Shown here: positions 16,730-33,481 of the stretch, in pieces
Numbering within the stretch: the stretch's first letter is position 1
How the letters are laid out: every line of letters starts with the position of its first letter
From: Enterobacter sp. RHBSTW-00175
GTDB taxonomy: Bacteria; Pseudomonadota; Gammaproteobacteria; Enterobacterales; Enterobacteriaceae
Reading direction: 5' to 3'
Length of the DNA: 64,000 bases
NCBI RefSeq assembly: GCF_013927005.1
Contig: NZ_CP055932.1
Location: forward strand, 1 to 64,000
Notes under the pieces: generated by a model
What the model was told of the DNA's origin: nothing
Databases searched by the model: none
The model's input: the letters and a program-made list of their open reading frames with translations, nothing else
Translations under genes and position numbers: made by a program

Positions 16730-18013
16730 TCATACCTCAAGTTTGTCCAGCATTTCTTTGGTAACCAGAACGATGCCTTCTTCCGAACGATAAAAGCGTC
16801 GCGCATCCTCAACGGCATTTTCGCCAATCACCGTCCCCTCCGGAATAACGCATCCCCGGTCGATCACGCAGCGTCTTATCCTGCAGGAGCGACCGACCCA
16901 GACGCCCGGTAATAAAACCGACGAATCAATATTACAGAACGAGTTAATCCGAACTCTGGAAAATAGAACCGACTGCACCACCACCGAGCCAGAAATAATA
17001 CAGCCGCCGGAGACCAGAGAATTCATGGTCATGCCATGACTGCCGGAACGGTCCTGAACAAATTTGGCGCTGGGCAGCGATTCGACATAGGTACGGATAG
17101 GCCAGTTACGGTCATAAACGTCCAGCTCTGGCACTACTGAGGCTAAATCCAGATTCGCTTTCCAGTACGCCTCCAGGGTTCCGACATCGCGCCAGTATGG
17201 CTCGGCATTATTATCCGACTGAACGCAGGAGCGCGGGAACGGATGCGCATACGCTTCACCTGCCGCCGTTATCCTGGGAATAATATCTTTGCCAAAATCA
17301 TGGGTGGAGTGTTCATCCCGATCGTCGTCTTCCAGCAGCTGGTAGAGATATTCCGCATCAAACACATAAATGCCCATACTGGCAAGCGAGCGGGTTTCAT
17401 CGCCAGGAATGGTGGGCGGATTAGCCGGTTTTTCAACAAATTCAATGATTTTGTCATTCTCATCCACGGCCATGACGCCAAAAGCGCTTGCCTCTTCAAC
17501 CGGGACCGGCAGGCAGGCCACGGTACAGCGCGCCCCTTTTTCAACGTGATCGAGCAGCATCCGCGAATAATCTTGTTTATAGATATGGTCCCCGGCCAGA
17601 ATAACGACATATTCCGCATCATAGCGGCGGATAATATCCAGATTCTGGGTCACGGCATCCGCCGTCCCCCGATACCAGTTCTCACCATGCACCCGCTGCT
17701 GCGCCGGTAATAAATCCACGAACTCATTCATTTCTTCGTTAAAGAATGCCCAGCCGCGTTGAATATGCTGCACCAGTGAATGGGACTGATATTGTGTAAT
17801 GACCCCGATACGTCTTATTCCGGAGTTAATACAATTCGATAAAGCAAAATCAATAATTCTGAATTTACCGCCGAAATGCACCGCAGGTTTTGCGCGAATA
17901 GTGGTCAGGTCTTTTAATCGTGTGCCACGTCCGCCGGCGAGGATCAGGGCCACGGATTTAAGCGGTAACTGGCGCGACAGCATTAAGTTGTCAGTATATT
18001 CAAGTTTACTCAT
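16730..18013 (-). CDS. glgC: ADP-glucose pyrophosphorylase with altered allosteric site
   Basis: A 427-residue GlgC that makes ADP-glucose from glucose-1-phosphate and ATP, the committed step of glycogen synthesis. The nucleotide loop [11 protein letters not shown] (residues 23-33), the catalytic Asp region in GTADAVTQN and the C-terminal beta-helix are intact and colinear with E. coli GlgC. The E. coli fructose-1,6-bisphosphate activator residues are not kept. Lys39 is Ile (LTTIRAKPA), Arg419 is Lys and Arg423 is Asp ([12 protein letters not shown]), and the last four residues of the basic tail are missing. Residues of the AMP site such as Arg40 and His46 remain. The enzyme is probably active but less responsive to the activator. 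Confidence 0.96.
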
Positions 18014-18142
18014 AATAATGTCCTGCTATTAAATAAAAGCCATAAAAGAAAATAATGAAGAAAAAGCCTCACTCTTCTGCAAAATAATTCAGAAGTGATC
18101 ACCTCCGGTAATAAGTCAGCTGCAATAAATCAGCTGCGCGTT

Positions 18143-20335
18143 TTATTGCCCTGCAGATTCCCGTACCAGCCAGATTGTCGCCAGCGGCGGCAGAGTCACC
18201 GACAGCGAATGCTCCCGACCGTGGCTGGCGATCGCCTCGCTTGCCACGCAGCCGCCGTTGCCGGTGTTGCTCCCGTGGTAGTGCATCGAGTCGGTGTTCA
18301 GCTCTTCACGCCAGCGCCCCGGCTGGTTAATCCCGAAGCGATAGCCGTGACGCGGTACTGGCGTGAAGTTGCTCGCCACGATTATCTCGTTCCCGGCTTT
18401 ATCGCGACGGACAAAGATAAACACCGACCGTTCATGGTCATCCACAACAAGCCATTCAAAGCCGTAGGGGTCAAAATCCAGTTCGTGCAGTGCCTTATGG
18501 TGGCGATAGGTATGGTTCAGATCGCGCACCAGACGCTGCACCCCGTGATGCCAGTTGTCGCCCCCTTCCAGCAGATGCCAGTCGAGGCTGGCGTCGTGGT
18601 TCCACTCCCGCCCCTGGGCAAACTCGTTGCCCATAAACAGCAGCTTTTTACCGGGGAAGGCAAACAGCCAGCCGTAGTAGGCGCGCAGGTTGGCGAACTT
18701 CTGCCAGGCATCGCCAGGCATCCGGTCAAGAATCGATTTTTTGCCGTGAACCACTTCATCGTGTGACAGCGGCAACACGAAGTTTTCGGTGTAGTTGTAG
18801 AGCATCCCGAAGGTCATCTTGTCGTGATGATAACGACGATAGATGGGATCGAGCTGCATATAGTCGAGGGTGTCATGCATCCAGCCGAGGTTCCATTTGA
18901 ACCAGAAGCCAAGACCGCCCGTCGAAGACGGTCGTGTAACCCCGGCGAAGTCGGTGGACTCCTCCGCCATCGTGACCGCTCCCGGCGTCTGCTCACCGAG
19001 CACACGGTTGGTATTGCGCAGAAATTCAATCGCTTCGAGGTTTTCCCGGCCGCCGTACTCATTGGGCACCCACTCCCCCTCTTTGCGGCTGTAGTCGCGG
19101 TAGATCATTGACGCAACCGCATCCACGCGCAGGGCGTCGATCCCGAAGCGTTCAATCCAGTACAGCGCGTTCCCGACCAGAAAGTTGCTGACTTCACGGC
19201 GACCGTAGTTGTAGATCAGCGTATTCCAGTCCTGGTGATAACCTTCTCGCGGGTCGCTGTGTTCATACAACGCGGTGCCGTCGAACGATGCCAGCGCAAA
19301 GTCATCCGACGGGAAGTGGCCCGGCACCCAGTCGAGGATCACGTTCAGACCCGCGGCATGGGCAGCATTCAGGAAGTAGCGGAAGTCTTCACGGGTACCA
19401 AAACGGCGGGTCGGCGCGTACAGCCCGGTGGGCTGATAGCCCCAGCTGCCGTCGAACGGATGTTCGTTTACCGGCAGCAGCTCCAGATGGGTGAAGCCCA
19501 TCCACTTCGCGTAAGGCACCAGCTGGTCCGCCAGCTCGCGGTAGCTGAGCCAGAAATGGTTATCGGCGTGGCGGCGCCACGAGCCAAGGTGCACTTCATA
19601 AATCGAAATCGGTGCATCAAACTGGTTGGCCTGCTGACGGGACTGTGGCTGTTCGACCTTTTCCGGCATGCCGCAGATAAGCGACGCGCTTTCCGGGCGC
19701 ATCTGTGCCTCAAAGGCATACGGGTCGGATTTCACCCGCAGGTGGCCGTGGGCGTCAATCAGCTCGAACTTATACAGCTGGCCGTTATGCGCGCCGGGGA
19801 CAAACAGCTCCCAGATGCCGGACTCTTTGCGCAGACGCATCGGGTGGCGGCGGCCGTCCCAGTAGTTGAACTGTCCGACCACCGACACACGACGGGCGTT
19901 CGGCGCCCAGACGGAAAAACGCGTCCCGGTGACGCCGTCCATGGTGTCGGCATGGGCTCCCAGCGTCTCGTAGGGCCGCAGATGAGTCCCTTCAGCGAGC
20001 AGCCAGGCATCAAGCTCCTGCAGCAGCGGGCCAAAGCGATAGGGGTCGTCAATCAGGTTTTGCTGACCGTGCCAGGTGACGGCCAGCTGGTAACGAAAAG
20101 GATTTTTCCGGCGCGGCAGAACGCCGCTAAAGAACCCGCGTGTGTCGAGGCATTCGAGTTTACCGACTTTGCGCCCGGTTTTCGGTTCAATCACCCATAC
20201 ATCGGTGGCATCGGGTAATAATGCGCGCACTTCCAGACCCGCATCGGTTGAGTGCATGCCAAGCACGGAAAATGGATCGGAACAATGACCTGCGAGAAGT
20301 GCGGAGATCGCACTTTTTTCATTATAATCAGACAT
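18143..20335 (-). CDS. glgB: 1,4-alpha-glucan branching enzyme
   Basis: A 730-residue GH13 branching enzyme, close to the 728 residues of E. coli GlgB. It introduces alpha-1,6 branches. An N-terminal carbohydrate-binding region ([20 protein letters not shown]) precedes the catalytic barrel with nucleophile Asp in [13 protein letters not shown], acid/base Glu in TMAEESTDF and the third Asp in [15 protein letters not shown] chose the ATG at 20335, which follows AGGGTG; a GTG at 20344 also keeps the frame. It is first in the operon. In E. coli glgX follows glgB; here glgX is absent and glgC follows after 129 bases. Confidence 0.97.
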
Positions 20336-20675
20336 GGCAGTCACCCTACTATCATCCTGCGGAAAGAATTAAAACGCCTCTTCCTGCTTTATTGATCCGG
20401 TAATATTCCGCTGCATGCTACGCATCGAAATATCAACACGTTATTCCAGAGCCTTAAGACATGTCGGTTGTCCACAAATAGAGAGTGATTAACCTCCTGA
20501 GAAGTGAGTTAAATGCGCTGTACGACTTCTGTATTATCTGTCTTCAGAATAATTACTCCTGATTTTCTTTCTGTGAGTAAACACTCATTTCTATATTAAT
20601 GGGGAAACTAATTTTTATTTCGTCACGAATGATGAGTTTCCTTCTGCTGAATTCGTCAGATCGTATATAAAAAAA
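20336..20675. promoter_or_regulatory. Upstream region of the glycogen operon
   Basis: About 340 AT-rich bases between glgB and IS903 copy 2. No gene is visible. The operon promoter must lie here or inside the IS903 end. I could not pick one -35/-10 pair with confidence. IS903 copy 2 begins 340 bases before the glgB start, reading away from it. Confidence 0.4.
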
Positions 20676-21741: not shown

Positions 21742-22182
21742 TCGACTTCGTGTTATACATACCAGTATTTATAACAGTTTTAATCATCTAAATAGTCTTT
21801 TCAAGTATAGAACGTTATATTGAACATCAAACAGTTATTAAGGCTGGGATTGACTAAAGCGTTTTCTTTTCAAATACAATATGACGGTGTGGCTTTACAA
21901 CAATACAACTGATGCATGAGCCATCTCTTTGAGTGGATCAATAGCCCGGCTCTGCATCAGTTGGAACAAGCCGAATGGAGGTTGCCAATTTTCACGACTT
22001 ATTCAATCACCGTAATTACTCTCCACAATAAAACTAGGCCTGTAGCCGAAGATTTTGATGATGAGCTTGAACTGTCACAGAGCCGGTGGTACCGAACACT
22101 TCAAACGTATGAACGTAGGCGGGACGTTAGCTTATTGATAGTTCGTAGGAGTAAATCTCACCAATTCCAATTGTACGGTTGA
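21742..22182 (+). pseudogene. Degraded gene of unknown family
   Basis: From 21916 a frame of 88 codons (MSHLFEWINSPALHQLEQ...) runs to 22182. Upstream in the same frame, before a TGA and a TGC, readable codons continue (for example LLRLGLTKAFSFQIQYDG), so the sequence looks like one gene broken by a stop. The last 56 bases overlap the end of the convergent gene at 22127-23038, suggesting that the true end was lost at the junction. No family recognised. Confidence 0.3.
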
Positions 22183-23038
22183 TGGATTTTATAGGATAGT
22201 CATATATTGCTCCCAATTGTTTTTCAACGCTATTATTTGGATGATTGTTAATTAAGAAAACGCAGATACCGATAGCCGTAGGCTTTGTACCTAAGGATGT
22301 CAGCACCAGTCTTGGGTTTTCTGCATATATATCTAATAAGGTCTGATATACGGCGTAAGGGTTTGCACCAGGACAGGTTCTTAGATCTGTCTCCATGCTG
22401 TCGAAATGTAATAAATGCTTTCTGAGTGATTTGTTCTCCCAGCCTGGGATATAAGCTGGGACTGATATACAAGCCAGTAATTTATTGAAGCTTGCCCCAT
22501 CATCATTACTTAAAATCTGGCCTAGACGAGAGTTTTCAAATCCTAAGAATGAAACCAGGCTGGTTTTTTGTAAGCCAGATGTGATTGTATTCAGTGAAAA
22601 TACGGGAAGAGAAGAAAATGGCTGTCGGCCATCGCTTAATTGATACTCCTCATCCCCGCCCTCAGTCGAAGGCGACTTACTGTATTCTTTCGGTTCAATG
22701 TAGAGAACAGTAAATGATTCTATACCTTCAATCATATTAATGGAGTAAAAAAGATACAATATTTCAGGGAAATCAAGAGAAGTAGAGTCTATTATTACTT
22801 TTTTAGGCGACATAGAGATTAATGCATCCTTCAATGCTAACAATTTGTATTTATTACCATTGAGTTTTAATGCATATTCATCTTTTACATATTTAACCTG
22901 AAATGCATTGCTTGCGTTTACTTTTTTTATCGCCAGGCCAGTTCTCTCATCTAACTCTTCACCATAGAAAAAAATGTCATGATGGCGATTAGTAAAATCT
23001 AAGTTGTTGTGAGTTCTGATACGTTTGAATTTTATCAT
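22127..23038 (-). CDS. Unknown fourth gene of the PRTase/ATPase cassette
   Basis: A 303-residue protein I cannot assign. Its ATG overlaps the stop of the ATPase gene by 4 bases (ATGA), so it is translationally coupled. Alternating hydrophobic strands and helices (KKVIIDSTSLDFPEIL, ESFTVLYIEPKEY, SLVSFLGFENSRLG, LLACISVPAYIPGW, LTSLGTKPTAIGICVF) suggest a Rossmann-like alpha/beta fold. No transmembrane segment and no familiar nuclease motif is visible. Being last in the cassette, it is a candidate effector or specificity factor. The composition is AT-rich, like the rest of the cassette. Confidence 0.85.
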   Translation of the reverse strand: MIKFKRIRTHNNLDFTNRHHDIFFYGEELDERTGLAIKKVNASNAFQVKYVKDEYALKLNGNKYKLLALKDALISMSPKKVIIDSTSLDFPEILYLFYSINMIEGIESFTVLYIEPKEYSKSPSTEGGDEEYQLSDGRQPFSSLPVFSLNTITSGLQKTSLVSFLGFENSRLGQILSNDDGASFNKLLACISVPAYIPGWENKSLRKHLLHFDSMETDLRTCPGANPYAVYQTLLDIYAENPRLVLTSLGTKPTAIGICVFLINNHPNNSVEKQLGAIYDYPIKSINRTIGIGEIYSYELSIS

Positions 23039-25032
23039 AACAGGCCCAACTGGTATGATGTGACTGAACTAGAAACATCAAAAGATGAGTCATCGATATC
23101 CCACCGGGCTCCATATTTCTTTAACAAGGATGAAAAATCTTCATCACTACCTACAAAAATGGTTTCAACCTCACCTTTGCTAAATTTTATTTTTTTCTTT
23201 TTTCTGTGGCTTATTCCAAAATATGGTGCAAGAACTGGATGTAAGACGTAATCATTGAGTTCCAGGTTGTCAGTTGATTTACTCTTCGTTCCTTTCTGTT
23301 CAATCAGCACGGACCACACCAATGATTCATTTAGGATTTCCTTAACATTATAAGCAAGAAGATTTATATCAGTTAAATCTAAAGTGAAATGGTTTACTTC
23401 TGATTCGCTCTGAGAACGTCGAGATTGGCAATAGTTGAAAATCGCACCAAGTCTTTTAGCCACTCTTTTTAGATGCATTCCATGAGCACCAAAATCTCCT
23501 ATTTTTTCAATTTCGAGTTCACTCGTCTTCAGGGTGGCCTCTAATTGAGCTTCGATTGTCATGGATGGTATCGTTTTTGGCGGCAGTGGAGACGTGATAT
23601 TTGTTTTTGTTACCGACTGGTGACATAACTCCAGAAAATGTCTGATGTTCCCTCTTGATAAATATACAAACTGTTTATAGCCAGCGTACAGTGGGCAGAT
23701 TCTGGTTGGTAATTTATTATAAAGATAGAGAATTACACCGACGAGATTGTTAGGTATCCATGATTTATATTTTGTTGTATGTCCTGCTTTATATTGCAAA
23801 TATTGTTCTAACACCTCGTCTGGGCTAATACTTTTCCTATTCAGCAATGCACCATTTATCAGGCTTGCCTCAGGAAATTTATCATCTATAAAATATTGAA
23901 CTTGCAATTTTGACTTTGATTTAGACAAACCGGTTTCAATCATTGAATGTAATTTTTTAGTTAATGCGTCATCACTGAATATTTCATGTGATATCTCTTT
24001 TGTCGATTTTTCAGGAAGAAACTTACTGGCCAGATTTTTAATTGAATCCTGATACTCCTTCGTTTGTCTGTGCGGGATTTGATGTTCTGACGTAAATATG
24101 GAACGGAGTTTTTCATGATCAGTGTTTTCTATATAATCTGAAAAGCGCAGGGCTAATATCTCACCAGCAAATGTATCAAAGTCATTGAGATACAGTTCTT
24201 CTAAGTCTATATATCTGAAATCATGCTGCTCAACAATGCTTTCGTTGCCTAACGTTTTATGTGAAATATTAGCATTTTTCTTATAGGCAACACTGAACAG
24301 TAACGGCATGGATCCGTGCTTCATTAAAGTATTGATTATTGCCTGCTGGTCTGATGTCAAGTTCTCGAACTCGTCAATGTAAACTTGAAAATTAGGCTTT
24401 ATAATGCATCCAGTTATTGCATGTAGTTTGCTAATGATATTCTGTAATGAAAATTTTGTATCAAGAGAAAACGGTGGTGTTTCAGTAACTGGGGCATTTA
24501 TCCAATTGCAAAGAGTAAACAGTCTTTCATGTAAAAGATCGCTAACATCAACAAGTTTCGCATTTTTATCAATGCCCAAACCTTCAGAAATTGTATCTGG
24601 CAATTTCAGATTATTAATCTTCTCTTTCAACGAAAAAACAGGAGATTTTTCGGACAATAAATTATTGGTTAGTTTAACAAACTCAATAATCAGCGATAGA
24701 CTCATGTACGTTTTGAAAGCTGTTGACCAAAATTTTCCGAGCCAAGCTTCGGTTAATAACTGGCTAAAGGATGTATCCGGGCGCCAATATATACCCAGAT
24801 TGGAAAGATCCTCAATACCAATCGTATCTTTATTCACACTTAGAGCTGTCTGGTGGCAATGATACTTTAAGAACATCGTTTTTCCATATCCTCTCCCCCC
24901 AATAACTATACTTGCTTTTGTCGTTTTTTTTAGATTTACATCTTCGTACCCTAAGGGAAGAACATATTTACCATAGAGATCATCAGGTAATTCTTCGGCA
25001 CGGTTTTTCGAAAAAATCTCGTTAAATTTCAT
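23035..25032 (-). CDS. ORC/CDC6-like P-loop ATPase
   Basis: A 665-residue STAND/AAA-like ATPase. Walker A is IGGRGYGKT (residues 44-52) and Walker B is FQVYIDEFENL (residues 215-225), followed by an arm that reads LLFSVAYKK, a sensor-like strand. The C-terminal third holds helical segments and no obvious nuclease. The arrangement resembles the ORC-CDC6-like ATPases that Burroughs and Aravind associated with phosphoribosyltransferase-like conflict proteins. It starts 3 bases after the PRTase stop. It may couple sensing of invading DNA or replication intermediates to the partner proteins; that role is inferred. Confidence 0.85.
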   Translation of the reverse strand: MKFNEIFSKNRAEELPDDLYGKYVLPLGYEDVNLKKTTKASIVIGGRGYGKTMFLKYHCHQTALSVNKDTIGIEDLSNLGIYWRPDTSFSQLLTEAWLGKFWSTAFKTYMSLSLIIEFVKLTNNLLSEKSPVFSLKEKINNLKLPDTISEGLGIDKNAKLVDVSDLLHERLFTLCNWINAPVTETPPFSLDTKFSLQNIISKLHAITGCIIKPNFQVYIDEFENLTSDQQAIINTLMKHGSMPLLFSVAYKKNANISHKTLGNESIVEQHDFRYIDLEELYLNDFDTFAGEILALRFSDYIENTDHEKLRSIFTSEHQIPHRQTKEYQDSIKNLASKFLPEKSTKEISHEIFSDDALTKKLHSMIETGLSKSKSKLQVQYFIDDKFPEASLINGALLNRKSISPDEVLEQYLQYKAGHTTKYKSWIPNNLVGVILYLYNKLPTRICPLYAGYKQFVYLSRGNIRHFLELCHQSVTKTNITSPLPPKTIPSMTIEAQLEATLKTSELEIEKIGDFGAHGMHLKRVAKRLGAIFNYCQSRRSQSESEVNHFTLDLTDINLLAYNVKEILNESLVWSVLIEQKGTKSKSTDNLELNDYVLHPVLAPYFGISHRKKKKIKFSKGEVETIFVGSDEDFSSLLKKYGARWDIDDSSFDVSSSVTSYQLGLL

Positions 25033-25035
25033 ATT

Positions 25036-25929
25036 TTACCTTTTGAATAACCTATTCCATCCTTCATTTTCAAACCAGAGGAATGAAAGATTATTATTTG
25101 GAGTTGAGTTTGCCAAGACATAACTAAGCCCCAAATTACCGAACCCTAATGGATTGCTTATTGAGTTCTTATTACATATATCAATGTACAATCTTAAGAA
25201 ATCATTATGTGTATAGAAATATTCTCTATTTATTCTCCTGTTGGATGCTCTAAAGAAACTATGATTTTCATCCAAGTACTCAACAGGCCTAATAATTAGG
25301 TTTTTATATTTAGATTGTATCCTTATTGTTGAATCGCGTAGAGCCGCAAATGGAATGAATATTATTTTCTTTCCAAGTTCATCAAGATTTGTTTCTTTCA
25401 TGAAAGTGTCAATTTGAGTGCCAGAACCAAGCATATCATCAAAAAAAACTATCGCTTTGATTCTTGGTGGCAATTTTTCTATATTTTCAACTTTTACCCC
25501 TAAGTTTTTATCGAAAAAATCTCTTTGTAGGAATGTGTGTATTACATCACCACTTTTAGTGACTTTACTATCCACATTATTTATTACGGACGTTCGAAAC
25601 GGAAGATTCCTTGCATGTTTTGGCGAGTTGATGTCATTCATCCATTTTTCAATATCCTCAATATGGTAAATATCTAACTCCTCTAAGATCTGTGGGAGAA
25701 TAATTGAGAATATATTATAGCCCATAGATGTAACAGTTTCTCTGTTACGATATATCAACTCGCTTAACACAGAGGCTGCAAGATATTTTTCCTTTTCATC
25801 CTTGAAATTATCTAACCAGCGTTGCAGTACTGATACTTTTACATTATCCCAGTAACCAATCTTGATTAATTTTTTGGATTGTTCAATAATCGCTTCAGTA
25901 TCTCTTGCTGTAATATGATCTATTTTCAT
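25036..25929 (-). CDS. Phosphoribosyltransferase-like conflict protein (PRTase-CE)
   Basis: A 297-residue protein whose centre holds the PRPP-binding motif VFFDDMLGSGTQ (residues 161-172), the hallmark of type I phosphoribosyltransferases: two acidic residues, then a Gly-Ser-Gly-Thr loop. The N-terminal 110 residues are helical. No purine or pyrimidine salvage enzyme has this length or context, and the gene sits between a methyltransferase and an ATPase, which fits the PRTase-CE family predicted to act in prokaryotic conflict systems. The substrate is unknown; it may modify a nucleotide or nucleic acid. It starts 7 bases after the methyltransferase stop. Confidence 0.82.
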   Translation of the reverse strand: MKIDHITARDTEAIIEQSKKLIKIGYWDNVKVSVLQRWLDNFKDEKEKYLAASVLSELIYRNRETVTSMGYNIFSIILPQILEELDIYHIEDIEKWMNDINSPKHARNLPFRTSVINNVDSKVTKSGDVIHTFLQRDFFDKNLGVKVENIEKLPPRIKAIVFFDDMLGSGTQIDTFMKETNLDELGKKIIFIPFAALRDSTIRIQSKYKNLIIRPVEYLDENHSFFRASNRRINREYFYTHNDFLRLYIDICNKNSISNPLGFGNLGLSYVLANSTPNNNLSFLWFENEGWNRLFKR

Positions 25930-25936
25930 GATGTTA

Positions 25937-27178
25937 TTATCGCAGGGGTAGTTTTTTTATGTCATTTAATGTTATGTACTGCGCTCCAATGCCTTTCGAA
26001 ATACTTTTAATCCAGTCGACTCCAAATTTCGATTTTAATGCCGCGGCAACCATTTCACCACATTCGTACTCAGAAGCTTTGATAACAAAAACACAATCTG
26101 TAATGGAAAAAGAACCGTTTCGTATGATCCCAACTTTCCCCAAACATCTTGTTCCTACACGGGGTACAACAACATCTCCTTTCACCGCCTGTACGGCTGA
26201 ACCATTTTCTGCACTGTCATTGTTATTTTCAAATAAAGAAAAATCATTATAAAAAGAAGATGAATGGATTATCGCATCATGCAGTTGAGTTTTTTTCGTT
26301 TTGCTGATATTCCCTCTCATAACTTTTATACCTGAAGTTTCAATCGTTTTTTCGTTATTGTTATATTTAAAAGAGTTATATTGATGGTCGGCCCTTTCAA
26401 TAAACTCTTCTTTTTTAAGCCTTATCGCTTTATTTTTTTTTGAACTTCTTGTTGTTATTGATGGGCTTATTGATTTTTTGTTACTGACAGTGAGAATATG
26501 AGTCCTTGCTTCAGTTCCCAAAAATGCCTTATTATCTAATTCTATAACATCTATATATTTAAATAATGAGGTTATTTTTTCTCTGAGTGGTTTATATTTC
26601 TCGCTTGAAAATATCGTATCAGGTACAACAATTCCACAACAACTGTCTCGATCAAGCAACTTAAGCGATAACATTAAGAACAAAACCTCAGCTCTGTAAT
26701 ATTTTGTTTTATGATTTAGTGCCCACTCCTTAAATAAGAACCTTGTATAGGCAGTATGTTCAGCTGTATAAAAAGGAGGATTGCCAATGACTATGCCATA
26801 TGTACTGTTTTGTGCCTTTATTTTATCAAAACTGGCTGAATGGGTTGCATCTAAACATATACTCGTCGTGTTTTGTAATAGGTCTAACTTTCTGCAGTTT
26901 TCATCATCAATATCAATTCCGTAGAGCTTTGCGTTGTCGTATTTGAGCGCAGCTGTCATCAACAACGAGCCTTCACCAGCACTTAAGTCAATGATTGTAC
27001 TTGCTTCGTCTGATGGTAATGATGAGATAAGCAACTCTGCCACATCCCGGTTTGTATAGTACTGAGATAGACGTTTTTTTCTTGAAATCGTTTTGCCCAT
27101 GCTCAACTTGAACTTCCGCCTCTTCTGCTCTTGTTTTTGGAATGCTACCGCCCTCAGATCATCATGTCTGATAGCCAT
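25937..27178 (-). CDS. N6-adenine DNA methyltransferase with TRD-like C-terminus
   Basis: A 413-residue class I methyltransferase from the ATG at 27178; a TTG at 27229 would add 17 residues. It has SQYYTNRDVAELL (residues 38-50, like the lead-in of HsdM-type enzymes), motif I DLSAGEG (64-70) and catalytic motif IV GNPPFY (132-137). The C-terminal 100 residues, with IRNGSFSITDCVFVIKA and YITLNDIKKLPL, resemble a target-recognition domain of Type IIG/HsdS-like enzymes. It probably methylates adenine at a defined site. No nuclease domain is present in it. It is first of four coupled genes and diverges from the recombinase gene at 27372. Confidence 0.88.
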   Translation of the reverse strand: MAIRHDDLRAVAFQKQEQKRRKFKLSMGKTISRKKRLSQYYTNRDVAELLISSLPSDEASTIIDLSAGEGSLLMTAALKYDNAKLYGIDIDDENCRKLDLLQNTTSICLDATHSASFDKIKAQNSTYGIVIGNPPFYTAEHTAYTRFLFKEWALNHKTKYYRAEVLFLMLSLKLLDRDSCCGIVVPDTIFSSEKYKPLREKITSLFKYIDVIELDNKAFLGTEARTHILTVSNKKSISPSITTRSSKKNKAIRLKKEEFIERADHQYNSFKYNNNEKTIETSGIKVMRGNISKTKKTQLHDAIIHSSSFYNDFSLFENNNDSAENGSAVQAVKGDVVVPRVGTRCLGKVGIIRNGSFSITDCVFVIKASEYECGEMVAAALKSKFGVDWIKSISKGIGAQYITLNDIKKLPLR

Positions 27179-27371
27179 ATCATTTAACAGATAATTCAAA
27201 TGTTTTATCTTTGTTAAAGATATAGGCAACAGAGACTGGACTCAATAACTTTTCTACTTATTAAAATGTACGTTTGAGAAAGTAGACTCTATGCGGTACG
27301 CTCTGGCGTATACTTTTCCCCGATTTTTCACGCAGCGCGCCGGACGCTTTCCGGCCCGGACGGAGCCCCGG
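27179..27371. promoter_or_regulatory. Divergent promoter region
   Basis: About 190 bases between the divergent methyltransferase and recombinase genes. The part next to the methyltransferase is AT-rich, then the composition switches to GC-rich at about 27300. That abrupt change marks the edge of the imported cassette. No clear promoter pair was assigned. Confidence 0.4.
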
Positions 27372-28367: not shown

Positions 28368-28733
28368 TATCATATTAAGTTAATAACTTAACAAGAAACC
28401 GTAACAGTAATGCCGGTGGCAGCCGTGCTGCTGTCATATCCGGTACTGTCTGAACAGAGGAGGCGGAACTCCGGACTACGCTGCTTCCCCTGTTGCGCAG
28501 TCTGAAGGACGTCTTCATCTTTTCCCTTCGGTAAACGGCCAGCTGGCTGCTCCGCTTTGTATCCCAATACCGCTACCGGCGACTCAGGCCGGATACCAGA
28601 GATAACTCACTGATTGGGTACTAGTCATTAAAAAATAGTTTCGCTTAGGAACCGCCGGGTCTGATAACCTGTTGCCCTTTTTCTGGTGCAACCTGTGACC
28701 CCGGGCGGGGACATATTATTGATGGAGATCGTA
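28368..28733. other. Spacer between recombinase and mcr gene
   Basis: About 365 bases without a gene. Just after the recombinase stop lies the near-perfect palindrome TTAAGTTA-a-TAACTTAA (28375-28391), a possible recombinase core site. The rest contains the mcr promoter region, not resolved here. A GGAG at about 28723-28726 precedes the mcr ATG. Confidence 0.4.
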
Positions 28734-30253
28734 ATGCCCGTACTTTTCAGGATGAGGGTAATCCCCTTGGTTTTACTTCTGGCACTCGTTTTTGCATTCT
28801 TACTTAACTGGCCGGTGTTGCTGCATTTCTACGATATCCTGAGCCGTCTTGAACATGTGAGGGCGGGGTTCGTCATCTCCATTCCGTTTGTGCTGGTTGC
28901 AGCGCTTAACTTTGTGTTTATGCCCTTCTCGGTTCGCTACCTGCTCAAACCCTTCTTTGCCCTGTTGCTGGTCACCGGTTCGGTGGTGAGTTACGCCACA
29001 CTGAAATATAAAGTGATGTTTGATCAGTCCATGATCGAAAATATACTGGAAACAAACCCACAGGAAGCGCATGCCTACCTGAATGGCTCACTGGTGCTGT
29101 GGCTGGTCTTCATGGGCATTCTTCCGGCTATCCTGTTGTTTTTGATTAAAATTGAATATGCAGACAAATGGTACAAAGGGGTTGCCCACCGGCTGCTTTC
29201 CATGCTCGCTTCGCTGATCCTGATTGCAGGTGTTGCCGCTCTGTATTACCAGGATTATGCTTCTGTCGGGCGCAATAACCCGACGCTGAACAAAGAAATT
29301 ATCCCGGCAAACTATGCGTACAGCACTTTCCATTACGTGAAGGATACCTATTTTACGACGAAAATGCCTTTCCGGACGCTGGGGGATGATGCAAGGCGCG
29401 TTACCCGGAATGGTAAACCCACGCTGATGTTCCTGGTAATTGGCGAAACGGCACGGAGCCAGAATTTCTCCATGAACGGCTACCCGCGTGACACAAATGC
29501 CTTTACCAGCAAAATCGATGGCGTTATTTCGTTCAGGAATATGCGTTCCTGTGGCACGGCGACCGCAGTCTCGGTGCCCTGTATGTTCTCGGATATGAAC
29601 CGGACGGATTACGATGGTAAAAAGGCTGCCGGCAGTGAAAATGTCCTCGACATCGTGCAGAAAACGGGGGTTTCGCTGTTGTGGAAAGAAAACGATGGCG
29701 GGTGTAAAGGCGTATGCAGCCGTATCCCGACTGTCGAAATTAATCCCGGTATCAGTAAAAAACTGTGTGACGGTAAAACCTGCTATGACGATGTTATGCT
29801 GGAAAACCTGGATACCGAAATCGGCAAAATGGCCGGAGACAAGCTGATCGCCTTCCATATGATTGGCAGCCATGGACCGACCTATTACCAGCGTTATCCG
29901 GCAGAGCATCGTCACTTCATGCCGGAATGTGCGCGCAGCGATATCGAAAACTGCACGCAGGAACAGCTGGTTAATACCTACGACAATACCATTCGCCACA
30001 CCGACTATGTGTTAGCGCAGATGATTGAAAAGCTTAAGCAATACAGCGAACAGTACAACACCGTACTGCTGTATGTGTCCGATCACGGCGAATCTCTGGG
30101 AGAGAGCGGACTGTATCTGCACGGTACCCCCTACAAACTGGCACCGGATCAGCAGACGCACATCCCGATGCAGCTCTGGATGTCGCCAGGCTTCATTGCT
30201 GCTAAAAATATTAACGCCGCGTGTCTGCAGCATAATGCCGTTAACAGGACATA
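28734..30253 (+). pseudogene. mcr-10: mcr-10-like lipid A phosphoethanolamine transferase, 5' part
   Basis: The first 507 codons of an inner-membrane phosphoethanolamine transferase of the MCR-9/MCR-10 group, which adds phosphoethanolamine to lipid A and confers colistin resistance. Five N-terminal membrane segments precede a periplasmic hydrolase domain with IGETARSQNFS (Zn ligand Glu, about residue 239), the nucleophile Thr in SCGTATAVSVPC, SHGPTYYQRYP (about 379) and SDHGES (about 450). An IS2-like element interrupts it at 30254. Read-through into the IS gives a 511-residue product ending RTYRLAP and lacking the last 32 residues. Joining the two parts restores exactly 539 codons, the MCR-10 length. 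The group is firm, the allele probable. Confidence 0.9.
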
Positions 30254-30344
30254 TAGACTGGCCCCATGAATCTCCAGACAGTTGGTATCACTTAAGTTAG
30301 TGATAGTCTTAATACTAGTTTTTAGACTAGTCGTTGGAGTCCGA

Positions 30345-30710
30345 ATGATTGATGTTTTAGGTCCAGAGAAGCGCAGACGGCGAAGTGTTCAGGAAAAAAT
30401 CGCCATTGTTCAGCAGAGTTTTGAGCCCGGAATGACCGTGTCGCTGGTCGCCCGTCAGCATGGCGTTGCTGCCAGTCAGCTGTTCCTGTGGCGTAAGCAG
30501 TATCAGGAAGGCAGCCTTACAGCCGTTGCCGCAGGAGAACAGGTTGTGCCCGCGTCGGAGCTGGCATCTGCGATGAAGCAAATTAAAGAGCTGCAGCGCC
30601 TGTTGGGCAAGAAAACCATGGAAAACGAGCTGCTAAAAGAAGCCGTTGAATATGGCCGACAAAAAAAGTGGATAGCGCACGTGCCCTTGTTACCGGAGGA
30701 TGGCGAATAA
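30345..30710 (+). CDS. insC: IS2 OrfA (InsC-like)
   Basis: 121-residue helix-turn-helix protein from the ATG at 30345, the InsC length. [17 protein letters not shown] and the [19 protein letters not shown] helix-turn-helix bind the ends. The frame extends upstream in the IR without support. An A7G run at 30661-30668 precedes the overlap with orfB and is the expected site for -1 frameshifting to the OrfAB transposase. Confidence 0.93.
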
Positions 30711-31573
30711 GCCTTGTCAGTCGTTGCCTCCGGGTCTCACGTGCGCAACTGCATGCCATAGCCCGTCAGTCGAAGGACTGGCAGGATCGTCGGTGCAAGC
30801 GCAAGCCTGATGATACTGACGCGCTGGCCCGTATCCATACCGTTATCGGCGATCTGCCCACCTATGGTTATCGTCGGGTATGGGCACTGTTGCGCAGACA
30901 ATCAGAAACTGACGACATGGCGGTGATCAATGCCAAACGCGTATACCGCATCATGCGTCAGAATGCGCTGCTGCTTGAGCGTAAACCGGAAATACCGCCA
31001 TCGAAGCGGGCGCATACAGGGAAAGTGGCCGTTGGAGAAAGTAACCAGCGGTGGTGCTCTGACGGCTTCGAGTTCAGCTGTGATAACGGTGAAAAACTGC
31101 GGGTCACGTTCGCTCTGGACTGTTGCGATCGCGAGGCACTTTACTGGGCGGCCAGTAACGGTGGATATGACAGTGAAACCGTGCAGGACGTCATGCTGGG
31201 TGCCGTGGAGCGTCGCTTCGGTAACAGCCTGCCGACATCCCCAGTTGAGTGGCTGACAGACAACGGTTCAGCCTACCGTTCTTATCAGACGCGTCAGTTC
31301 GCCAGAATGGTAGGACTGGAGCCTAAACATACGGCGGTACGTAGCCCGGAAAGCAACGGGATGGCAGAGAGCTTCGTGAAAACGATGAAGCGCGATTACA
31401 TCAGCATCATGCCGAAACCCGACGGGTTAACAGCGGTAAAGAACCTTGCGGAGGCCTTCGAACATTACAACGAATGGCATCCGCATAGTGCACTGGGGTA
31501 TCGTTCGCCACGGGAATATCTGCGGCGGCGAACCAGTAATGGGTTAAGTGATAAAAAGTGTATGGAAATATAG
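30668..31573 (+). CDS. insD: IS2 OrfB (InsD-like) transposase
   Basis: 301-residue catalytic part of the IS3-family transposase, the InsD length, opening at a GTG in the slippery A7G site. The DDE core shows [29 protein letters not shown] and [14 protein letters not shown]. Translation is expected mainly as a frameshifted OrfAB fusion. Identical to the copy at 32576. Confidence 0.93.
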
Positions 31574-32161: not shown

Positions 32162-32252
32162 TAGACTGGCCCCATGAATCTCCAGACAGTTGGTATCACT
32201 TAAGTTAGTGATAGTCTTAATACTAGTTTTTAGACTAGTCGTTGGAGTCCGA

Positions 32253-32618
32253 ATGATTGATGTTTTAGGTCCAGAGAAGCGCAGACGGCGAAGTGTTCAG
32301 GAAAAAATCGCCATTGTTCAGCAGAGTTTTGAGCCCGGAATGACCGTGTCGCTGGTCGCCCGTCAGCATGGCGTTGCTGCCAGTCAGCTGTTCCTGTGGC
32401 GTAAGCAGTATCAGGAAGGCAGCCTTACAGCCGTTGCCGCAGGAGAACAGGTTGTGCCCGCGTCGGAGCTGGCATCTGCGATGAAGCAAATTAAAGAGCT
32501 GCAGCGCCTGTTGGGCAAGAAAACCATGGAAAACGAGCTGCTAAAAGAAGCCGTTGAATATGGCCGACAAAAAAAGTGGATAGCGCACGTGCCCTTGTTA
32601 CCGGAGGATGGCGAATAA
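32253..32618 (+). CDS. insC: IS2 OrfA (InsC-like), copy 2
   Basis: 121 residues, identical to the protein at 30345-30710, with the same A7G slippage site. Confidence 0.92.
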
Positions 32619-33481
32619 GCCTTGTCAGTCGTTGCCTCCGGGTCTCACGTGCGCAACTGCATGCCATAGCCCGTCAGTCGAAGGACTGGCAGGATCGTCG
32701 GTGCAAGCGCAAGCCTGATGATACTGACGCGCTGGCCCGTATCCATACCGTTATCGGCGATCTGCCCACCTATGGTTATCGTCGGGTATGGGCACTGTTG
32801 CGCAGACAATCAGAAACTGACGACATGGCGGTGATCAATGCCAAACGCGTATACCGCATCATGCGTCAGAATGCGCTGCTGCTTGAGCGTAAACCGGAAA
32901 TACCGCCATCGAAGCGGGCGCATACAGGGAAAGTGGCCGTTGGAGAAAGTAACCAGCGGTGGTGCTCTGACGGCTTCGAGTTCAGCTGTGATAACGGTGA
33001 AAAACTGCGGGTCACGTTCGCTCTGGACTGTTGCGATCGCGAGGCACTTTACTGGGCGGCCAGTAACGGTGGATATGACAGTGAAACCGTGCAGGACGTC
33101 ATGCTGGGTGCCGTGGAGCGTCGCTTCGGTAACAGCCTGCCGACATCCCCAGTTGAGTGGCTGACAGACAACGGTTCAGCCTACCGTTCTTATCAGACGC
33201 GTCAGTTCGCCAGAATGGTAGGACTGGAGCCTAAACATACGGCGGTACGTAGCCCGGAAAGCAACGGGATGGCAGAGAGCTTCGTGAAAACGATGAAGCG
33301 CGATTACATCAGCATCATGCCGAAACCCGACGGGTTAACAGCGGTAAAGAACCTTGCGGAGGCCTTCGAACATTACAACGAATGGCATCCGCATAGTGCA
33401 CTGGGGTATCGTTCGCCACGGGAATATCTGCGGCGGCGAACCAGTAATGGGTTAAGTGATAAAAAGTGTATGGAAATATAG
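32576..33481 (+). CDS. insD: IS2 OrfB (InsD-like) transposase, copy 2
   Basis: 301 residues, identical to the protein at 30668-31573; all DDE motifs are present. Confidence 0.92.

Follow-up and report, generated by a model that had tools for sequence, protein, structure and literature searches.

A plasmid-borne cassette of PRTase-CE, ORC/CDC6-like ATPase, CARF6 and adenine methyltransferase genes as a candidate anti-invader system

A coupled four-gene cassette beside an MCR-10-like gene

We analysed a 64,000-nucleotide stretch of Enterobacter DNA (the window), taken from contig 3 of a genome that consists of four contigs. Reading the open reading frames of the window sequence revealed four coupled minus-strand genes between 22127 and ~27229, here called MT, PRT, ORC and CARF (Table 1). 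MT and PRT are separated by 7 bases (25930-25936) and PRT and ORC by 3 bases (25033-25035), and ORC and CARF overlap by 4 bases (23035-23038). G+C content per kilobase was 32-38% across 22-27 kb, compared to 47-61% in kilobases 18-22 and 27-30 kb. Spacing, ATGA overlap and AT-richness were thus as described in a first-pass annotation of this DNA. Three starts can be read for MT; in an identical Klebsiella pneumoniae copy, the gene is annotated as a 1263-nt CDS corresponding to window 25937-27199. A tRNA scan found none, and a promoter and terminator scan gave no signal above shuffles.

Table 1. Genes, motifs and the candidate crossover site of the cassette (window coordinates; fractions are alignment rows with the residue)
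Feature	Position	Strand	Details
CARF	22127-23038	minus	303 aa
ORC	23035-25032	minus	665 aa
PRT	25036-25929	minus	297 aa
MT	from 25937; start 27178, 27199 or 27229	minus	
GTKP motif of CARF	22280-22291	minus	G250 77/77, T251 72/77, P253 77/77 (alignment)
Walker B D220-E221 of ORC (in IDEFENL)	24370-24375	minus	81/81 each
Walker A GGRGYGKT of ORC	24877-24900	minus	G45, R47, G48, G50, K51, T52 81/81; G46 80/81
PRPP-loop-like motif DDMLGSGTQ of PRT	25414-25440	minus	D164 78/79, D165 79/79, G170 77/79, Q172 78/79
NPPF catalytic motif of MT	26771-26782	minus	N150, P151, P152 75/75; F153 65/75
Joint of cassette and recombinase-MCR-10 unit	27253-27305	none	candidate crossover site

The three protein families named in the first-pass annotation were recovered by Pfam, and the motifs NPPF, FFDDMLGSGT and GGRGYGKT on which it had drawn were all present. 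ORC is an ORC/CDC6-like AAA+ ATPase (PF24389, ORC-CDC6-like, 7.5e-117) with Walker A and B motifs, an ORC/Cdc6-like predicted fold and, probably, a winged-helix region at about 518-607; its sequence had no match in the PDB at E 0.1. PRT is a PRTase-CE phosphoribosyltransferase-type protein (PF24390, 3.4e-51; 175 bits against a cut-off of 27) that also matches the PADLOC retron model PRTase_III-A (2.8e-24). It carries the DD..G.G.Q motif of the family within the stretch FFDDMLGSGTQ, and we take DDMLGSGTQ to be the PRPP loop. At the near-invariant position 132 the window has T, compared to R in 73/79 rows. The PRT family profile retrieved three uracil PRTases as its sole, weak matches in the PDB (E 0.097-0.43).

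By profiles, MT is a gamma-class N6-adenine DNA methyltransferase (Pfam N6_Mtase, 4.4e-16; PADLOC MTase_II, 1e-65) with an HsdS-like C-terminal target-recognition domain, in which weak Specificity_I matches fall within about 300-430. The MT family profile A4 matched EcoR124II M (5.5e-23), BseCI (6.4e-21) and TaqI (2.2e-13). Pfam and PADLOC recognised no nuclease family in the four cassette proteins as a restriction partner.

The fourth protein had been left without a family and was considered a possible toxin. We observed that it is a relative of PADLOC CARF6 (5.2e-47) with a predicted tandem Rossmann fold of the CARF/SAVED type, which places it in the CARF superfamily. Its GTKP motif presumably corresponds to the 'GTK' ligand motif of CARF proteins, R32 is invariant (78/78), and its sequence had no match in the PDB at E 1. 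Because this sensor-type fold has no added effector domain, the CARF6 protein is unlikely to be the toxin.

The cassette adjoins an MCR-10-like gene. Among 72,556 plasmid records, 140 carried at least 80% of the cassette; any match was found in 191 (Klebsiella 135, Enterobacter 44), and 161 of these were typed as conjugative. The ORC gene is rare in the host family (3/392 genomes, source genome included). Most of the cassette was found in 4 of 5,426 E. coli genomes, always on plasmids of strains named C600 and J53, two of them recorded as coming from a conjugation assay. The abutting recombinase gene had been read as a frequent companion of defence cargo. Two cassette-only plasmids that we compared matched the window as far as 27305, and two plasmids that carry the recombinase-MCR-10 unit without the cassette matched 27253-27290 (the query ended at 27290). 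Since unit and cassette are each found alone, the recombinase is better seen as a neighbour of separate history. It is apparently part of a distinct recombinase and MCR-10 unit, probably joined to the cassette at a recombination site.

Conservation of the gene set and replacement of its parts

A search with the ORC profile yielded 80 named loci, the best 80 of 111 confirmed relatives, so that counts out of 80 are not prevalences. Profiles of the window genes found PRT at 79/80, CARF at 77/80 and MT at 74/80 of these loci. All four genes lay within 3.5 kb of ORC at 71/80, which bears out the earlier description of a coherent, mobile, conflict-type gene set and goes against the outcome named there as refuting, a lack of co-occurrence in other genomes; this distance leaves room for inserted genes (SIR2-like at L013 and L017), the count includes one MT split in two (L035) and one truncated at a contig end (L044), and the ORF calls in relatives are mechanical. 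Two loci have all four genes with an extra module ahead of MT (L039, L065), four sets are cut by contig ends (L009, L011, L024, L026), two lack an MT of the cassette's own family (L057, L070) and one lacks a recognised PRT (L073). The best 80 loci span ten phyla. Nine of these have complete sets; in the tenth, Thermodesulfobacteriota, the end of the contig truncates the locus.

We observed the order PRT-ORC-CARF at every locus of the best 80 where all three genes were found (76/76). MT varied in position: it followed CARF at 49 loci, followed it in reversed orientation at 11, preceded PRT as in the window at 10 and lay upstream and divergent at 1. A quick ORC tree with 81 rows, of which 73 were counted and 8 left out, requires at least five changes of MT position. 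The catalytic motifs were near-invariant across loci (ORC Walker A/B 80-81/81; PRT 77-79/79; MT NPP 75/75). In Pfam scores, recurrence on plasmids and conservation in distant genomes, the four-gene set is far beyond chance. Chance neighbours and a decayed restriction-modification remnant are ruled out by the conserved set and the presence of the catalytic motifs.

We also searched one CARF6 model across 394 genomes of the order. Each of the 8 matches lay beside an ORC-type ATPase (seven read; G264 by coordinates). The six strong matches were the six genomes with PRT and ORC from the PRT scan, and the two weak matches belonged to operons in which a phosphoesterase stands in place of PRT (phosphoesterase-ORC-CARF6). 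Three more such operons were found on plasmids (L183-L185, from five plasmid matches to one of the two), giving five phosphoesterase loci; two of L183-L185 are headed by a D12 (Dam-type) methylase. The phosphoesterase match of L182 does not reach the Pfam cut-off, and the ATPase of L184 was found by tblastn only. PF24408 (wHTH-Calcineurin_assc) was over its cut-off in two of the phosphoesterase proteins, and the variant seems to be known to family curators too. At one further locus (L115), PRT, ORC and CARF6 are kept and a methylase from a different family (PF01555, 5.8e-09) occupies the MT slot. In the loci read, ORC-CARF6 is therefore the constant core around which effector and methylase are replaced. 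A second module, present at 5 of the best 80 of 111 loci, consists of an ORC-like ATPase with a zinc ribbon and a ~280-aa protein and shares or adjoins MT; the ~280-aa protein has an RxxxxH HEPN-like motif read by eye and no Pfam match.

PRTase-CE scans returned 19/394 and 6/369 genomes over the cut-off, or 25 distinct places. Seven places are of the present cassette type, one cut by a contig end and one being L115. Another seven adjoin RVT_1 reverse transcriptases (two with a short frame), and six adjoin NADAR genes, two of these with type I methylase parts. In three places the domain lies within ORFs of 1,071-1,085 aa, one of them an ATPase fusion by Pfam; one place is a fusion to an OLD-like TOPRIM and one a weak match. 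This spread over varied partners is the use pattern of an effector, and it fits the earlier proposal of the PRTase as toxin candidate; PRT is the probable effector of the cassette. The PRTase of retrons is likewise called an effector (PMC9122126, PMC12548924).

Sensor ligand, pyrimidine-linked genes and the methyl mark

Most of what is understood about CARF/SAVED sensors comes from Cas10 and CD-NTase messengers. We searched for cyclases in 57 of 87 carriers (7 genomes and 50 of the 80 loci). Full-length Cas10 (Csm1, Cmr2; TIGR02577/02578) was over the cut-off in 0/57 carriers, with 6 and 1 weak matches below it, and a SMODS CD-NTase was present in 8/57. The source genome had no match to full-length Cas10 and none to SMODS. 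These data suggest that, in most carriers, neither Cas10 nor SMODS is likely to make the CARF6 ligand. The Cas10 palm profile PF22335 matched 28/57 carrier genomes, 17 over the cut-off (best 37 bits), the source genome among them (27.4 bits). We set it aside because 5/14 control genomes also pass, E. coli included, and the matches are weak and short; they were taken for GGDEF proteins.

Genes of pyrimidine metabolism recur next to PRT. Directly upstream of it and on the same strand, we observed dUTPase_2 at four loci (L015, L024, L038, L050), a trimeric dUTPase at two (L071, L076) and DCD at one (L054), a total of 7/80 among the best 80 of 111 relatives; dUTPase_2 holds the same place in L179 and L180. 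ThyX lies one ORF upstream in L070; a close homologue immediately follows MT in L051, and L033 has a weak homologue upstream. The seeds for the dUTPase and ThyX counts were drawn from the slot itself, which makes the contrast with other positions soft, and some of these genes may be ordinary neighbours. The presence of several dCTP-dUTP-dTMP families at the same position points to a pyrimidine deoxynucleotide connection of the cassette. The NADAR neighbours bear on the chemistry of PRT: NADARs cleave ADP-ribose from guanine and act as antitoxins (PMC11125620), which, together with the 6/25 adjoining places, suggests that PRTase-CE may form a ribosyl-base bond.

Target-recognition domains of type I and BREX systems swap, a behaviour typical of restriction-modification, if not strictly defining. 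We compared pairs among 72 MT rows (L035, L039 and L065 left out; no external swapping family was run as control). Mean recognition-domain identity was 84.1 in pairs with catalytic identity of at least 80% (n = 4), 67.7 at 65-80% (n = 12) and 52.6 at 50-65% (n = 23), and none of the 39 pairs at or above 50% catalytic identity fell below 30% recognition-domain identity. At 35-50% catalytic identity the mean was 37.5, and 18/111 pairs were below 30%. Among the close pairs compared, the recognition domain appears to diverge in step with the catalytic domain. The MT residues R305, G306, H322 and R357 do not vary among the 73-74 rows covering them. A fixed MT motif would suit a separate reader such as ORC, which would need one, and the earlier idea that the methylase marks self DNA is plausible. 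Sensing of foreign DNA by ORC would be compatible with its ORC1/Cdc6-like predicted model.

Proposed function and relation to known systems

We infer a defence function, and give an even chance to an anti-invader system of four parts, in which ORC and CARF6 form the switch and both the effector (here PRTase-CE) and the self-marking methylase are exchangeable. MT would methylate adenine in one fixed motif on host and plasmid DNA. The ORC-like ATPase would assemble on DNA that lacks the mark or has an invader replication structure, gated by the CARF6 protein when bound to, or released from, a nucleotide-type ligand. The activated complex would turn on PRT, which with PRPP could phosphoribosylate a base, nucleotide or nucleic acid. 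This would poison replication or the nucleotide pool and lead to abortive infection or plasmid exclusion.

The cassette could instead relay a signal, with PRT as alarm synthase, CARF6 as its receptor, CARF6-ORC as executor through DNA remodelling or a replication block, and MT protecting the host. A CARF/SAVED-type sensor in carriers with full-length Cas10 over the cut-off in 0/57 and SMODS in 8/57, beside ORC in 8/8 matches of the order scan, is consistent with such a relay. A ribosyl-nucleotide messenger would also have a parallel in the signal synthesis proposed for Ter-system PRTases (PMC5512222, PMC7824862). However, ORC-CARF6 persists in the phosphoesterase variant, where PRT is missing, which excludes PRT as the general ligand source; PRTase-CE also occurs in settings with no recognised CARF (the RT, NADAR, ATPase and TOPRIM loci), and no destructive domain was recognised in ORC or CARF. 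We regard the relay as unlikely.

Still less probable is plasmid addiction, in which MT would mark plasmid and host DNA, the mark would fade upon plasmid loss and ORC-PRT would then kill, any effect on phages being secondary. The recurrence in 140 of 72,556 plasmid records, the 161/191 typed as conjugative, the coupled genes and the tolerance of the cassette in C600 and J53 strains are as addiction would have them. Against it, the titles of the best 80 of 111 relatives name no plasmid and one says chromosome (a weak point, as most are unplaced contigs), and some relatives lie near integrases or other conflict genes. We think it very improbable that the cassette excludes invaders without a toxin, with the ORC ATPase and MT blocking invader replication (compare BrxC and BrxX in BREX) and PRT and CARF as regulators: the window proteins scanned include no PglZ or other BREX core, and it is the effector slot, not the ATPase, that is exchanged in the loci read. 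The anti-invader system with an exchangeable effector stays our preferred reading.

A wider extension of that preferred reading is tentative, and we hold it to be rather unlikely as a whole. The ORC-CARF6 pair would be a general immune switch responding to a nucleotide signal from no known cyclase, and self would be told from non-self by one widely shared methyl mark, not by a diversifying one. PRTase-CE would represent a new class of immune effector whose targets for phosphoribosylation are pyrimidine bases, nucleotides or nucleic acid, an action undone by NADAR-type glycosidases and buffered by dUTPase/ThyX companions. We hold four new points to be the strongest: the ORC-CARF6 core stays constant while effector and methylase are swapped, the sensor occurs mostly in carriers with no recognised cyclase, the methyl mark does not swap, and there are links to NADAR and to dUTPase/ThyX. 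PRTases are listed as effectors of retrons and other systems with unexplained action. A compact cassette with exchangeable effectors around a constant core, found naturally on plasmids that are on record in E. coli laboratory strains, makes CARF ligands and immune PRTase action directly testable.

The first-pass annotation knew of no experimental description of this exact set. This stands: in the literature searched, with partial coverage of subscription papers, we found no experimental description of a PRTase-CARF-ORC-methylase system, and the word 'CARF6' occurred in an unrelated use. The set is not uncatalogued, since Pfam names two components (ORC-CDC6-like PF24389 and PRTase-CE PF24390) and PADLOC models CARF6, and by profile the cassette proteins fall into these families. 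The ORC-CDC6-like and PRTase-CE conflict families and CARF6 reportedly go back to Burroughs and Aravind 2020 and Makarova et al. 2020. The present analysis contributes the joint set with MT, a recognition domain that does not swap in the pairs compared, the cyclase counts and the links to dUTPase, ThyX and NADAR. The legend of the validated-systems figure of DefensePredictor names MTase and PRTase, and this legend alone does not tell whether the cassette is one of those systems (PMC13092281).

The cassette resembles several known systems in part. It shares an adenine methylase and an ATPase of the ORC/Cdc6 clade (BrxC) with BREX, but has no PglZ among the genes scanned, adds a PRTase and CARF6, and its methylase recognition domain is not swapped in the pairs compared. 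The sensor fold is that of CBASS (SAVED/Cap5) and of the CRISPR CARF effectors Csm6, Can2 and Card1, whereas the sensor here has no effector domain and the source genome has neither SMODS nor full-length Cas10, the marks of CBASS and type III CRISPR. With retron III-A it shares a homologous PRTase; in place of a reverse transcriptase (a scan of eight window proteins at 20.7-30.3 kb found no RVT_1), the cassette has ORC, CARF and MT. The DprA-PRTase system of P2-like phages differs in its sensor, and the accessible text of its source mentions no CARF or methylase, but it shares with the cassette the pairing of a PRTase with a putative DNA-sensing partner (PMC9122126).

Surroundings of the cassette in the window

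The stretch between the four-gene cassette and the adjoining recombinase unit is a candidate tyrosine-recombinase site. By eye, we saw the inverted repeat TCTACTT/AAGTAGA in this stretch. The MCR-10-like frame matched 508 of 539 family positions, and an IS3-type transposase pair abuts its 3′ end. The two IS3-type copies gave identical translations when the listed translations were compared. We also observed glgC- and glgB-like genes near the cassette (16730-20344; names assigned by eye).

Features beside the cassette (window coordinates)
Feature	Position	Remark
Candidate tyrosine-recombinase site	27253-27305	Cassette/recombinase-unit joint
MCR-10-like phosphoethanolamine transferase frame	28686-30269	
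IS3-type element, copy 1	30282-31573	Same orientation as copy 2
IS3-type element, copy 2	32190-33481	Same orientation as copy 1

Additional genes at related loci

At five related loci (L003, L004, L012, L039 and L065), the methylase is adjoined by a second ORC-like ATPase, which contained a zinc ribbon in the one scanned, and by a HEPN-like protein of ~280 aa. Two Pseudomonas loci carry a SIR2-like gene flanked by the CARF gene and the methyltransferase gene (L013, 11023-11976, identity checked with Pfam; L017, 5321-6331). Pyrimidine-nucleotide genes adjoin the PRTase or methylase elsewhere, encoding dUTPase or DCD (L015, L024, L038, L050, L054, L071, L076, L179 and L180) or ThyX (L051 and L070).

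PRTase-CE and ORC-CARF6 in other settings

PRTase-CE adjoins NADAR at six loci (L119, L123, L163, L164, L165 and L168), two of which include type I methylase parts. PRTase-CE and NADAR possibly form a new toxin-antitoxin or defence pair. PRTase-CE also lies within ORFs of 1,071-1,085 aa (L116, L117 and L120); in L116 (7249-10485), an AAA/STAND-like ATPase precedes it. Five loci (L181, L182, L183, L184 and L185) carry a calcineurin-like phosphoesterase-ORC-CARF6 operon, preceded by a D12 methylase in two of the five. These operons are a sister system.
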